NCBI GenBank assembly: GCA_031291305.1
Contig: JARLJH010000069.1
Coordinates: 21,783 to 85,782, forward strand
DNA from: Rhodoferax sp.
Lineage (GTDB): Bacteria; Pseudomonadota; Gammaproteobacteria; Burkholderiales; Burkholderiaceae_C
Direction of reading: 5' to 3'
DNA: 64,000 nt
Shown here: positions 9,818-64,000 of the stretch, one piece after another
How positions within the stretch are numbered: position 1 is the first letter of the stretch
How the letters are laid out: each line of letters opens with the position of its first letter
Position numbers and translations under genes: made by a program
Notes under the pieces: model-generated
Database searches by the model: none
Told to the model about the DNA's origin: nothing
What the model saw: only the letters and a program-made list of their open reading frames with translations

Positions 9818-9851
9818 GAAAGGTTTCCTTGCAGGGTTGACATCAAAAACA

Positions 9852-9885
9852 CAAAAAAAAACCGCCGGTGGTGCCGGCGGTTTTT
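9852..9885 (-). terminator. Attenuator terminator of the aroG leader
   Basis: On the minus strand a perfect 12-bp stem AAAAACCGCCGG/CCGGCGGTTTTT with loop CACCA is followed by a run of T. It lies between the aromatic leader peptide and aroG, 35 bases before the aroG start codon. Its 5' arm (ACCGCCGGC) can instead pair with GCTGGCGGT inside the leader peptide's last codons (9928-9936), with one G-U pair, which gives the antiterminator alternative. Confidence 0.9.
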
Positions 9886-9915
9886 GAGGAATCAGGACGT
9901 TTTTTTTGGGTACGT

Positions 9916-9984
9916 TCAGAACTCTCTACCGCCAGCGGCGCTTGAGAACCAAAAGTAGCTAAAGAAGAAGTTCACTGATTTCAT
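9916..9984 (-). CDS. Aromatic-amino-acid leader peptide of aroG
   Basis: A 22-codon frame starts MKSVN, continues FFFSYFWF at residues 6-13 and ends SSAAGGREF, so seven of eight consecutive codons are Phe, Tyr or Trp. This is the signature of an attenuation leader, as in pheL of enterobacteria. The Ala-Ala-Gly-Gly codons lie in the RNA segment that can pair with the 5' arm of the terminator. A ribosome stalled on the aromatic codons leaves that segment free and prevents termination, while one that reaches the UGA covers it. There is no Shine-Dalgarno sequence (CCCTCCC precedes the ATG), so the peptide may be translated from a leaderless transcript. Confidence 0.88.
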   Translation of the reverse strand: MKSVNFFFSYFWFSSAAGGREF

Positions 9985-9992
9985 GGGAGGGA

Positions 9993-10001
9993 AATGTAGC
10001 A
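9993..10001 (-). promoter_or_regulatory. Candidate extended -10 promoter of the aroG leader
   Basis: On the minus strand TGCTACATT matches an extended -10 (TGnTATAAT) and ends eight bases before the A of the leader ATG, so transcription would start at or next to the start codon. The region 17 bp further upstream (AGTTTT) is a poor -35. Confidence 0.45.
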
Positions 10002-10046
10002 CAGTCGATTCGCGGAAAACTGACACTGCGCCAAGACAGAGCCTGT

Positions 10047-11507
10047 TCAGGCGGTGCCGCCGACGGTCAGGCCATCGAGCCGCAAGGTGGGTTGACCGAC
10101 GCCAACTGGCACGCTTTGCCCCTCTTTGCCGCAGGTGCCGACACCGCTGTCGAGCTTCATATCGTTGCCGATCATGCTCACGCGTTTGAGGCACTCGGGG
10201 CCACTTCCCACCAGCGTGGCCCCTTTCACCGGGTACTGGATCTTGCCGTTTTCCACCCAGTACGCCTGACTGGCCGAGAACACGAACTTGCCCGAGGTGA
10301 TATCCACCTGACCACCGCCAAAGTTAGTGGCGTACAAACCTTTTTTGATACTGGCAACGATTTCCTCTGGTGGTTTGTCGCCGCCCAGCATGTAGGTGTT
10401 GGTCATACGTGGGATTGGCACATGGGCGTAGCTTTCACGCCGACCATTGCCGGTGGGCTTCACACCCATCAGACGCGCGTTCATGGCGTCCTGGATGTAG
10501 CCTTTGAGAATACCGTCTTCGATCAGCACATTGCGACCGCTGGTGTTGCCCTCGTCGTCCACATTGAGCGAGCCGCGACGGTCGGTAATCGTGCCGTCAT
10601 CCAACACCGTCACCCCCTTTGCTGCCACACGCTGACCAATGCGACCACTGAAGGCGCTTGAGCCCTTGCGGTTGAAATCGCCTTCGAGTCCGTGACCAAT
10701 GGCCTCATGCAGCAAGATGCCGGGCCAGCCTGGGCCCAGCACCACAGTCATTTCACCGGCGGGTGCGGGGCGTGCTTCCAGATTGGTGAGCGCAGCCGTC
10801 ACGGCTTCATCAACGTAGCGCTCGATCAAGGCATCGTCAAAATAGGCAAAGCCAAAACGGCCACCACCGCCGGCCGACCCAACCTCGCGACGGCCCTTTT
10901 GCTCAGCAATCACGGTCACGCTCAGGCGAACCAGCGGGCGCACATCAGCTGCAAGGGTGCCATCGGCGCGGGCGACCAGCACCACATCGTGTTCAGCCGC
11001 CAGGCCGGCCATCACCTGAGCCACACGCAGGTCTTTGGCGCGCGCCAGTTTCTCCACCTTTTCCAGCAAAGCCACTTTGGCCGTGCTGTCCAGGCTGGCA
11101 ATCGGATCCAAGCCGCCGTACAACGAACGCGAAGACGCTATTTTTTTAGCAGCTACTCGCGCTTTCTTGTCCTGGGCTGCAGCCGAAATTGATCTAACAG
11201 TGTTGGCTGCATCCATGAGCGATGCCTCTGAAATATCATCCGAGTAGGCGAACGCCGTTTTCTCGCCGCTGACCGCCCGCACACCCACACCCTGGTCAAT
11301 GGAAAATGAGCCCGTTTTGACAATCCCCTCCTCCAGGCTCCAGCCCTCACTGCGGGTGTATTGGAAATACAGATCAGCCTCATCGACCTGATGCGCCTTG
11401 ATGGCAGCCAGAGCCCGGCTCAGGTGCGCCTCATTCAGACCAAAAGGGGTTAACAGGAGGGACTTGGCAACGCCAAGGCGTTCAATGGTGGGTTCACGTG
11501 AAATCAT
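10047..11507 (-). CDS. tldD: Metalloprotease TldD
   Basis: Catalytic subunit of the TldD/TldE protease (PmbA partner), which trims unfolded peptides and, in other bacteria, matures modified peptides such as microcin B17 and degrades CcdA. The 486-residue length is normal. The zinc motif HEAIGH is at residues 267-272, followed by GLEGDFNRKGSSAFSGR and the NVDDEGNTSGRNVLIEDGIL region. Residues 107-125 (ISAAAQDKKARVAAKKIAS) coincide with a degenerate copy of the dispersed repeat at DNA level. The partner gene is not in the window. The gene is followed by the aroG leader. Confidence 0.95.
   Translation of the reverse strand: MISREPTIERLGVAKSLLLTPFGLNEAHLSRALAAIKAHQVDEADLYFQYTRSEGWSLEEGIVKTGSFSIDQGVGVRAVSGEKTAFAYSDDISEASLMDAANTVRSISAAAQDKKARVAAKKIASSRSLYGGLDPIASLDSTAKVALLEKVEKLARAKDLRVAQVMAGLAAEHDVVLVARADGTLAADVRPLVRLSVTVIAEQKGRREVGSAGGGGRFGFAYFDDALIERYVDEAVTAALTNLEARPAPAGEMTVVLGPGWPGILLHEAIGHGLEGDFNRKGSSAFSGRIGQRVAAKGVTVLDDGTITDRRGSLNVDDEGNTSGRNVLIEDGILKGYIQDAMNARLMGVKPTGNGRRESYAHVPIPRMTNTYMLGGDKPPEEIVASIKKGLYATNFGGGQVDITSGKFVFSASQAYWVENGKIQYPVKGATLVGSGPECLKRVSMIGNDMKLDSGVGTCGKEGQSVPVGVGQPTLRLDGLTVGGTA
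11138..11185 (+). repeat. Dispersed repeat inside tldD (degenerate copy)
   Basis: The plus strand reads TAGCAGCTAC, then CGCGCTTTCTTGTCC and TGGGCTGCAGCC, a degenerate match to the layout of copy 1. It lies in frame in tldD and codes for part of an Ala/Lys-rich loop. Confidence 0.4.
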
Positions 11508-15002: not shown

Positions 15003-16247
15003 TCAAGCCAAGGTGACACGTGCAAACTTACGCTTGCCAACTTGCAGCACATAGGTGCCAGCACCCAGCTTCAAGCCCTTGTCGCTAACCACGCTGGTAT
15101 CGATACGCACGCCACCGCCATCAATCAAACGGTTGCCTTCGCCACTGGAAGCCGCCAGCCCAGCCGATTTCAACAGCGCGCCAATGCCTAGCGCAGCCCC
15201 TCCCTCACCCAGCGGCAGACTGATCTCGGCGATCTCGTCTGGAATGCCACCCTTGCTGCGATTGATGAAGTCCTGCTCGGCGGCATCTGCTGCCGCCGCA
15301 TTGTGGAAACGGGCGGTAATCTCCTTGGCCAGTGCCACTTTGGCATCCTTGGGGTTGCGACCAGCGGCCACTTCAGCTTTGAGCACGGCGATATTGGCCT
15401 CACTCTTGAAGCTCAACAACGTATACCAGCGCCACATCAGCACGTCGGAAATGCTCAACACCTTGGCGAACATGGTGTTGGCATCCTCGCTGATACCGAT
15501 GTAGTTATTCTTGCTCTTGGACATCTTTTCGACACCATCCAGTCCTTCAAGCAATGGCATGGTCAGGATGCACTGCGGCTCCTGGCTGTATTCAGCCTGA
15601 AGATGGCGGCCTACCAACAGGTTGAATTTCTGGTCGGTGCCACCGAGTTCCAAGTCGCTCTTCAAAGCCACCGAGTCGTAGCCCTGCATCAGCGGATACA
15701 AAAACTCGTGCAAAGAAATCGATGCGCCTGCGTGATAGCGGTCATGAAAGTCGTTGCGTTCCATCATGCGTGCCACCGTGTACTTGGCCGCCAACTGAAT
15801 CATGCCTCGCGCACCCAGCGCATCGCACCATTCGCTGTTGTAACGGATCTCTGTCTTGGACGGATCCAGCACCATGGATGCTTGGCGGTAATACGTCTGG
15901 GCGTTGATGTCAATCTGCTCGCGGCTCAGTGGTGGACGTGTGGTGTTACGTCCAGACGGGTCACCAATCAGCGTGGTGAAGTCGCCAATCAAAAAAATGA
16001 CCGTGTGCCCCAGATCCTGCAGCTGGCGCATTTTGTTCAACACCACAGTGTGGCCGATGTGAATATCGGGCGCAGTCGGGTCCAAGCCCAGCTTGATGCG
16101 TAGCGGCGTGCCGGTCGCTTCAGAACGCACCAGTTTTTTGACCCAGTCGTCTTGCGGGATTAACTCTTCGCAACCGCGCAAGGTCACCGCCAAGGCTTCG
16201 CGGACGCGGTCAGAAGCAGAGAATTCAGGTGTTTTGGATTCGGTCAT
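15003..16247 (-). CDS. tyrS: Tyrosyl-tRNA synthetase
   Basis: Class Ic synthetase charging tRNA-Tyr. The 414-residue protein has the HIGH motif at 63-66 (PDIHIGHTV), the KMSKS loop ([14 protein letters not shown]) and a C-terminal S4 RNA-binding domain ([34 protein letters not shown]). It diverges from the M23 peptidase gene, so both promoters lie in the 140-bp gap. Confidence 0.98.
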
Positions 16248-63900: not shown

Positions 63901-64000
63901 AGCCTGACGATGACCTACTTTCACACGGGAATCCGCACTATCATTGGCGCAGAGGCGTTTCACTGTCCTGTTCGGGATGGGAAGGAGTGGAGCCACCTCG
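63901..64000 (-). rRNA. rrf: 5S ribosomal RNA, 5' end cut by window edge
   Basis: The reverse complement contains the conserved 5S parts CCCATCCCGAAC, GTGAAACGCC, GATAGTGCGG and the 3' stem ending GTCAGGC. The first bases lie outside the window. The 23S and 16S genes are expected to follow to the right. Confidence 0.95.

Follow-up and report, generated by a model that had tools for sequence, protein, structure and literature searches.

Competing RNA hairpins and a Phe/Tyr/Trp-rich leader peptide upstream of aroG point to a ribosome-mediated transcription attenuator in Rhodoferax and many other Burkholderiales

The aroG gene of Rhodoferax sp. is very probably controlled by a ribosome-mediated (classical) transcription attenuator, which lies directly upstream of the gene in the 64,000-nucleotide stretch of DNA analysed here (the window). 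We favour this reading because the RNA structures of the leader covary, because their predicted folding depends on where a ribosome stalls, and because the trpL leader of E. coli behaves alike in the same computation. DAHP synthase, the product of aroG, sets the flux into all the aromatic amino acids; the RNA switch appears to control aroG in many Burkholderiales families and in Xanthomonas, with a codon mix tuned by lineage, and how these bacteria regulate aroG becomes directly testable. The distinctive features of the element would be a probably leaderless leader ORF, in the window's family, and a mixed Phe/Tyr/Trp sensor. The probable leaderless start, an extended antiterminator and the breadth of the family go beyond the original prediction made for this locus.

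Table 1. Position of aroG, its upstream neighbour and the parts of the putative attenuator in the window.
Feature	Position	Strand	Basis
aroG, 3-deoxy-7-phosphoheptulonate (DAHP) synthase, 380 aa	8675-9817	minus	NCBIfam TIGR00034 aroFGH, 539 bits vs cut-off 173
tldD, upstream neighbour, same strand as aroG	10047-11507	minus	NCBIfam
Extended -10 element TGTGCTACATT, 8 nt 5′ of the leader ATG	9993-10003	minus	
Leader peptide ORF MKSVNFFFSYFWFSSAAGGREF, 22 codons and TGA	ATG 9984, TGA to 9916	minus	
Sensor codons F6 F7 F8 S9 Y10 F11 W12 F13	9946-9969	minus	
Hairpin P1, 5′ strand TTCTCAAGCGCC, codons F13 to A16	9937-9948	minus	
P1, 3′ strand GGCGGTAGAGAG, also the first antiterminator strand	9922-9933	minus	
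Antiterminator core GCTGGCGGT, complementary to the terminator 5′ arm	9928-9936	minus	
Inner antiterminator helix, 5′ strand ACGT	9912-9915	minus	weaker support
Inner antiterminator helix, 3′ strand ACGT	9897-9900	minus	weaker support
Intrinsic terminator, 12-bp stem, 5-nt loop, T run to about 9852	9857-9885	minus	
AAGGA, likely aroG ribosome binding site	9826-9830	minus	read in sequence

The original prediction had named all the parts of a classical attenuator, and each of these parts exists, is conserved and shows the selection that an attenuator should experience. Both the 22-codon leader frame and the perfect 12-bp terminator with its T run were confirmed where Table 1 places them. The leader ORF ends 98 nt upstream of aroG, and 30 nt separate its TGA from the terminator hairpin. 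The proposed pairing of leader codons with the terminator 5′ arm also held, as GCTGGCGGT (9936-9928) pairs with ACCGCCGGC (9881-9873) through nine pairs, one of them U-G, but the paired segment encodes three residues, Ala17-Gly18-Gly19, and not the four that had been proposed. An ORF on the minus strand at 15003-16247, about 5 kb from aroG, presumably encodes a tyrosyl-tRNA synthetase, which it resembles.

The aromatic array is far above the chance level. Residues 6-13 of the leader, FFFSYFWF, are aromatic at seven of eight positions, as had been predicted, and the leader is the sole site in the window where at least six of eight codons are aromatic (stop-to-stop frames; three overlapping octets). 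Twenty simulated first-order Markov windows of 64 kb contained three octets with at least six aromatic codons and none with at least seven.

A search for AroG in the genome of origin and 59 relatives gave 30 loci, the window being one of them, and in two of these the sequence stops short of the upstream region. The other 28, all of the same genus and the window among them, have a leader and a terminator directly before aroG. The comparison with relatives put forward in the original prediction thus found both the aromatic codons and the terminator conserved. For the codon analysis, the window and the 27 other leaders of the genus were combined with 60 leaders from other genera. Across these 88 leaders, the seven sensor codons are aromatic in 601 of 616 cells, and the order Y-F-W-F is conserved, with Trp just before the last Phe of the array in 80 leaders and Tyr three residues before that Phe in 76. 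As every Phe, Tyr and Trp codon begins with U, the array might instead be kept as an unstructured U-rich tract, serving pausing or the binding of a protein or an sRNA, and not as codons. This is very improbable, given that bases other than the majority one occur 13, 66 and 113 times at codon positions 1, 2 and 3, that 56 of the 77 nonsynonymous changes from the commonest codon (beside 80 synonymous ones) are Phe-Tyr exchanges, and that the Trp codon TGG, which makes no U tract, is kept as often as stated above.

Past the array the peptide is variable, with C-termini (GGREF, AVESS, HRTGGGEANA and VTDGRES are examples) that vary in both length and frame. Since GGCGG-like and GAGAG-like motifs persist all the same, the 3′ part of the leader is kept as RNA. 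An argument from conservation of the frame, with length changes in multiples of three, was dropped as circular, since the search itself had picked in-frame ORFs. In one same-genus locus (L011:2672-2798, minus strand), an early stop after GG shortens the leader to 19 codons, and the array, P1 and a shorter terminator are retained.

The leader is 3.2 standard deviations more stable in folding than dinucleotide shuffles, and it holds three competing elements. These are P1 (TTCTC..GCC with GGC..GAGAG), the terminator (AACCGCCGG with CCGGCGGTT) and the antiterminator, in which GGCGG pairs with CCGCC of the terminator 5′ arm. In an alignment of 65 leaders, the terminator is paired in 99.1% of the cells (nine pairs counted) and P1 in 88.1%, with 97.5% for its outer part (TTCTC:GAGAG) and 72.2% for its inner part (GCC:GGC). 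The antiterminator is paired in 84.4% of the cells in the window's family, where some of the misses reflect a segment shifted by one base. In eight leaders of the family, one antiterminator pair has changed from G-C to A-U, the terminator 3′ arm being unchanged and forming a U-G pair at this position. These eight leaders form one group on the AroG tree, with two changes of state, and so they amount to about one event and not eight; another leader (L118) shows a further change at the next pair.

Within the genus there was too little variation to assess covariation, no pair being changed on both sides. Across families (alignment A4, 49 leaders, 500 shuffles, which ignore kinship), five of the eight antiterminator pairs have changed on both sides, a number reached by none of the 500 shuffles, and the covariation score of the antiterminator was likewise reached by none, kinship again being ignored. 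Of five measures, one, further pair types, was reached by 37 of the 500 shuffles. One antiterminator pair occurs as U-A in 17 leaders, C-G in 16, U-G in five and A-U in one, with ten other combinations. When the alignment was slid out of register, 17-55% of the cells were paired, compared to 84.4% in register (49 leaders). Pairing is lost at the outer two pairs in 11 and 10 sequences, and at the eighth and last pair in 36 of 49. A leader segment changes in step with the 5′ arm of the terminator, something that terminator pairing alone would not call for, and the covariation backs an antiterminator that would exclude the terminator, with few independent events inside the family. An inner helix, nested inside the antiterminator, reads ACGT:ACGT in the genus and GCGT:ACGC or ACGC:GCGT in relatives. 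It is paired in 68.0% of the cells, its score was reached by 10 of 500 shuffles, and its duplex energy is -7.2 kcal/mol, compared to -5.5 kcal/mol for shuffled sequences (88 leaders), with an interior mean z of -1.15 (86 leaders).

In a rival explanation, the hairpin is a mere terminator of tldD, or a generic one, and the aromatic ORF is incidental. Although tldD does precede the leader in the window and shares its strand, we consider this explanation extremely improbable, since it leaves unexplained the codon-level constraint on the sensor codons as well as the covariation of the leader with the terminator arm, and since the leader is kept at five loci (L007, L011, L012, L013 and L015) where the upstream DNA, judged by eye, is unlike tldD.

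The attenuator reading was examined further with a folding model in which a mask covers the RNA as far as 13 nt from the A-site codon and the pairing of the terminator 5′ arm with the leader is computed before the 3′ arm is made. Averaged over the 88 leaders, the arm-leader pairing is 0.87-0.90 while the ribosome is within the array and 0.90 when the last aromatic codon occupies the A site; it is 0.66 at the next codon, 0.07 two codons on and 0.03 at the stop codon. In E. coli trpL, the same method gave a pairing of 0.62 up to R12 and a drop at T13-S14, beside W10-W11, and for trpL alone the mask was also set to 10 and 16 nt (13 nt was used elsewhere), which moved this boundary by one codon. 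A boundary was obtained for 155 of the 168 leaders in all sets combined, and in 117 it lies between -1 and +2 codons from the last aromatic codon; the exceptions are 38 leaders with a boundary farther off, ten with none and three lacking a terminator. The computation thus predicts that a stall within the sensor array frees the antiterminator and that one past it does not, with 38 of the 155 leaders deviating. In the absence of a ribosome, the mean arm-leader pairing is 0.40 (88 leaders), and the RNA of the window favours the antiterminator (0.99). In this RNA, P1 alone may therefore fail to enforce termination.

It had been suggested that the charge state of all three aromatic tRNAs is sensed. 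The conserved Y-F-W-F order speaks for this, but some lineages lack the Trp codon, as six of the 88 leaders and all eight Oxalobacteraceae leaders seen have no Trp in the array. The switch might then work as described and sense Phe alone, with a minor contribution of Tyr and little weight on the Trp codons. Phe codons do make up most of the array, and the C. glutamicum aroR-aroF system responds to Phe and not to Tyr in the part of the study considered here (PMC11802643). We nevertheless consider Phe-only sensing rather unlikely, since Trp and Tyr are kept in most of the 88 leaders, at the counts given above, and W12 and F13 sit exactly where, according to the folding model, a stall still frees the antiterminator.

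We also looked at how the leader begins. The motif TGNTANNNT ends 6-10 nt 5′ of the leader start in 80 of the 88 leaders, at 7 or 8 nt in 72 of them, and bases outside the search pattern are biased as well (among 79 leaders, G in 72 before the TG, C in 66, C in 59, A in 77 and T in 61). From -42 to -13, no column has one base in more than 37 of the 79 leaders, and so no -35 element stood out; a scan for consensus sigma-70 promoters with two hexamers found none at the locus. A Shine-Dalgarno-like motif (AGGA, GGAG, GAGG or AAGG) was found at the leader start in none of the 88 leaders. The usual spacing from a -10 element would make the A of the leader AUG, or a base beside it, the first one transcribed. 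Since the ORF starts 6-10 nt past an extended -10 box and has no Shine-Dalgarno motif, the leader mRNA is probably leaderless in the window's family. For S. meliloti trpL, a transcript start at the leader AUG is recorded in the part of the literature considered (PMC7298713). A leaderless start would not be general, because the leaders of Burkholderia and Oxalobacteraceae have likely -10 boxes, resembling TATAAA or TATAGT by eye, 25-40 nt before the start.

Taken together, these data suggest the following mechanism. RNA polymerase would begin transcription on the leader AUG or no more than a few bases away from it, and a ribosome would translate the 22-codon leader. With charged Phe, Tyr and Trp tRNAs plentiful, the ribosome would reach the stop codon and cover GGCGGUAGAGAG, the terminator would form and transcription would end after about 130 nt. 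If the charged tRNA for any of Phe, Tyr or Trp, the set presumably sensed in vivo, ran short, the ribosome would stall in FFFSYFWF and mask the 5′ strand of P1. The GGCGGU..GAGAG..ACGU strand, now released, could then pair with ACGU..AUUCCUC..ACCGCC, taking up the terminator 5′ arm, and aroG would be transcribed. Read-through into aroG would hence change with the supply of charged aromatic tRNAs.

The leader is widespread. A covariance model (R1), built from the window and the 27 other leaders of the genus and used at E ≤ 0.01, matches 315 of 399 genomes and 125 of 141 genera of the window's family. The 60 leaders from other genera used above were chosen as one listed R1 match per genus, all with E < 1e-6, and in all 60 genera AroG (70-85% identical) lies behind a terminator and, further upstream, an aromatic leader that is 22-29 codons long. 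Of the 84 genomes that R1 left without a match, 20 were tried with a second model (R2), built from 65 leaders, and 16 were recovered. In the order Burkholderiales, R2 matches 102 of 399 genomes, 12 of which belong to the window's family. When 20 of these matches were fetched, one or two per family, 14 of them, from 13 further families of the order, showed AroG with a leader and terminator. Six weak matches (L147-L152, E > 0.002) had no aroG in the fetched stretch and were read as plain terminators. Among 14 AroG regions from genomes of the order lacking an R2 match, a leader and terminator were present in one (L162) and absent in 13; they were also present in three AroG regions with an R2 match and in one more of the genus. 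The switch thus appears, on this comparative basis, to be common to many families of Burkholderiales.

Among 80 named AroG loci, 58 have a leader and terminator. The genera with the leader include Variovorax, Acidovorax, Polaromonas, Hydrogenophaga, Ramlibacter, Limnohabitans, Comamonas, Rubrivivax, Rhizobacter and their kin, then Burkholderia, Caballeronia, Paraburkholderia and Cupriavidus lacunae, typically with MSAKFYFYFFWHLRPLADREG, and also Massilia, Rugamonas, Janthinobacterium and Oxalobacter; two Xanthomonas carry it at aroG (FYFWYYGF). The 22 loci with no leader and terminator include those of Polynucleobacter (three), Cupriavidus necator, C. pampae, Thauera, Azoarcus, Rhodocyclus, Dechloromonas, Methylotenera (two), Enterovibrio, Pantoea, Colwellia and Shewanella (two). 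On a quick AroG tree of the 80 loci, the trait needs at least eight changes, so that the leader is largely inherited with aroG. At the class level (369 genomes, model R3), most of the matches listed cover the terminator part only. Nine of the stronger full-length loci listed were checked: four have an AroG about 61-64% identical with a leader and terminator (three genomes of family f63 and one of f68, both families lying outside the order), one has a distant AroG and no terminator, and four have no AroG. Five loci outside Burkholderiales (L248, L264 and L273-L275), from the two Xanthomonas and from f63, have the same kind of leader (FYFWYYGF; FYWYYFPKPLAEEG). The leaders outside Burkholderiales could reflect either transfer or old inheritance. 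In a gammaproteobacterial genome of family f92 (L278), a short aromatic-rich ORF, CFFYFSFFS, precedes a distant (34.5%) DAHP synthase-like gene, and no terminator was found there.

An attenuator of this kind is not new, because attenuators of DAHP synthase genes are known in Corynebacterium and have been proposed elsewhere. The original account of the aroR leader of aroF in C. glutamicum is reportedly that of Neshat et al. in 2014. The main text of a 2010 attenuator survey names neither aroG, aroF nor DAHP. As in the window, aroR places a leader with aromatic codons before a DAHP synthase gene, and transcription rises on Phe limitation, according to the parts of two studies considered (PMC11802643, PMC7356990); compared by description, that system belongs to another phylum and has Phe-Tyr-Phe, whereas the window has an F/Y/W array of seven codons. 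In the sections considered, attenuation has been hypothesised for E. coli aroF (PMC8632094, PMC2659441), and predicted RNA motifs upstream of Shewanella aroF and aroH were suggested to act through tRNA-sensing attenuation or premature termination (PMC2659441). Unlike the present case, these gammaproteobacterial proposals describe no aromatic leader array in those sections (PMC8632094, PMC2659441), and the AroG loci of two Shewanella and of Pantoea in our set of 80 have no such leader with a terminator. The uORFC-13-1 motif, also predicted, resembles the element in that a uORF with a Phe codon is followed by a terminator and the DAHP synthase gene aroF; it differs in comprising 24 sequences from Acholeplasma and environmental DNA, for which at least one Phe codon is reported and a mixed array goes unmentioned in the part consulted (PMC8632094).

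The pheA leader of E. coli, pheL (Rfam Phe_leader, RF01859), also has a Phe-rich leader peptide followed by a terminator, but it controls pheA and its peptide contains neither Tyr nor Trp. Between 9700 and 10100, an Rfam search at E up to 10 gave no fitting family, Phe_leader reaching 21.6 bits (E 0.27), below its gathering score of 55. At gathering thresholds, the only family found in the whole window was 5S rRNA, a partial copy of which lies at the window's end (63902-64000, minus strand, 61.7 bits). Since no Rfam family catches the aroG leader in the window, annotation will tend to miss the element.

In model enterobacteria and other gammaproteobacteria, the TyrR and TrpR repressors control the DAHP synthase genes, as stated in the consulted part of a comparative study of Proteobacteria (PMC5343134). 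A betaproteobacterial aroG attenuator was found in no report among the matches listed from the open-licence literature. In Ralstonia solanacearum, deletion of the other DAHP synthase gene raises aroG1-lacZ and aroG2-lacZ fusions about 10-20-fold, and Phe brings them down again two- to threefold, whereas deletion of a fusion's own gene gives no rise and Phe has little effect in the wild type, with 47 units going to 40 (PMC6379268). By analogy, an aroG attenuator may bear on these rises, and would explain them only in part.

A bolder proposal is a three-input gate, which a shortage of any one of the three aromatic tRNAs would open for aroG, and whose terminated, leaderless 130-nt RNA or FYW-rich peptide would also act in trans on other aromatic genes, by analogy with rnTrpL and peTrpL in Sinorhizobium. 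The trpL/rnTrpL system of S. meliloti is alike in having its leader ORF at the 5′ end of a leaderless RNA and in releasing the terminated RNA; in the portion of the study considered, it senses Trp only and controls trpE(G), and its trans role is shown, whereas that of the aroG leader is hypothetical (PMC7298713). We regard the trans-acting gate as distinctly unlikely; if true, it would place entry into the shikimate pathway under a widespread RNA regulator in Burkholderiales lineages. In the genome of origin, the matches listed beside the leader itself were the opposite strand of the same site or weak (E ≥ 0.27). No aromatic leader or terminator was found upstream of its second DAHP synthase (G000, contig C23:46565-47575, L169), which is 56% identical, and the same holds for the second paralog of a relative (L171).

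Some loci show unusual arrangements. One relative carries tandem aroG copies 79 nt apart (L164, G057:C1:2636366-2638526), with the leader before the upstream copy and a gap too short for another. In two same-genus loci (L008 and L014), an additional stretch of about 110 bases, containing long inverted repeats, separates the terminator from aroG and resembles, by eye, a small mobile inverted-repeat element.
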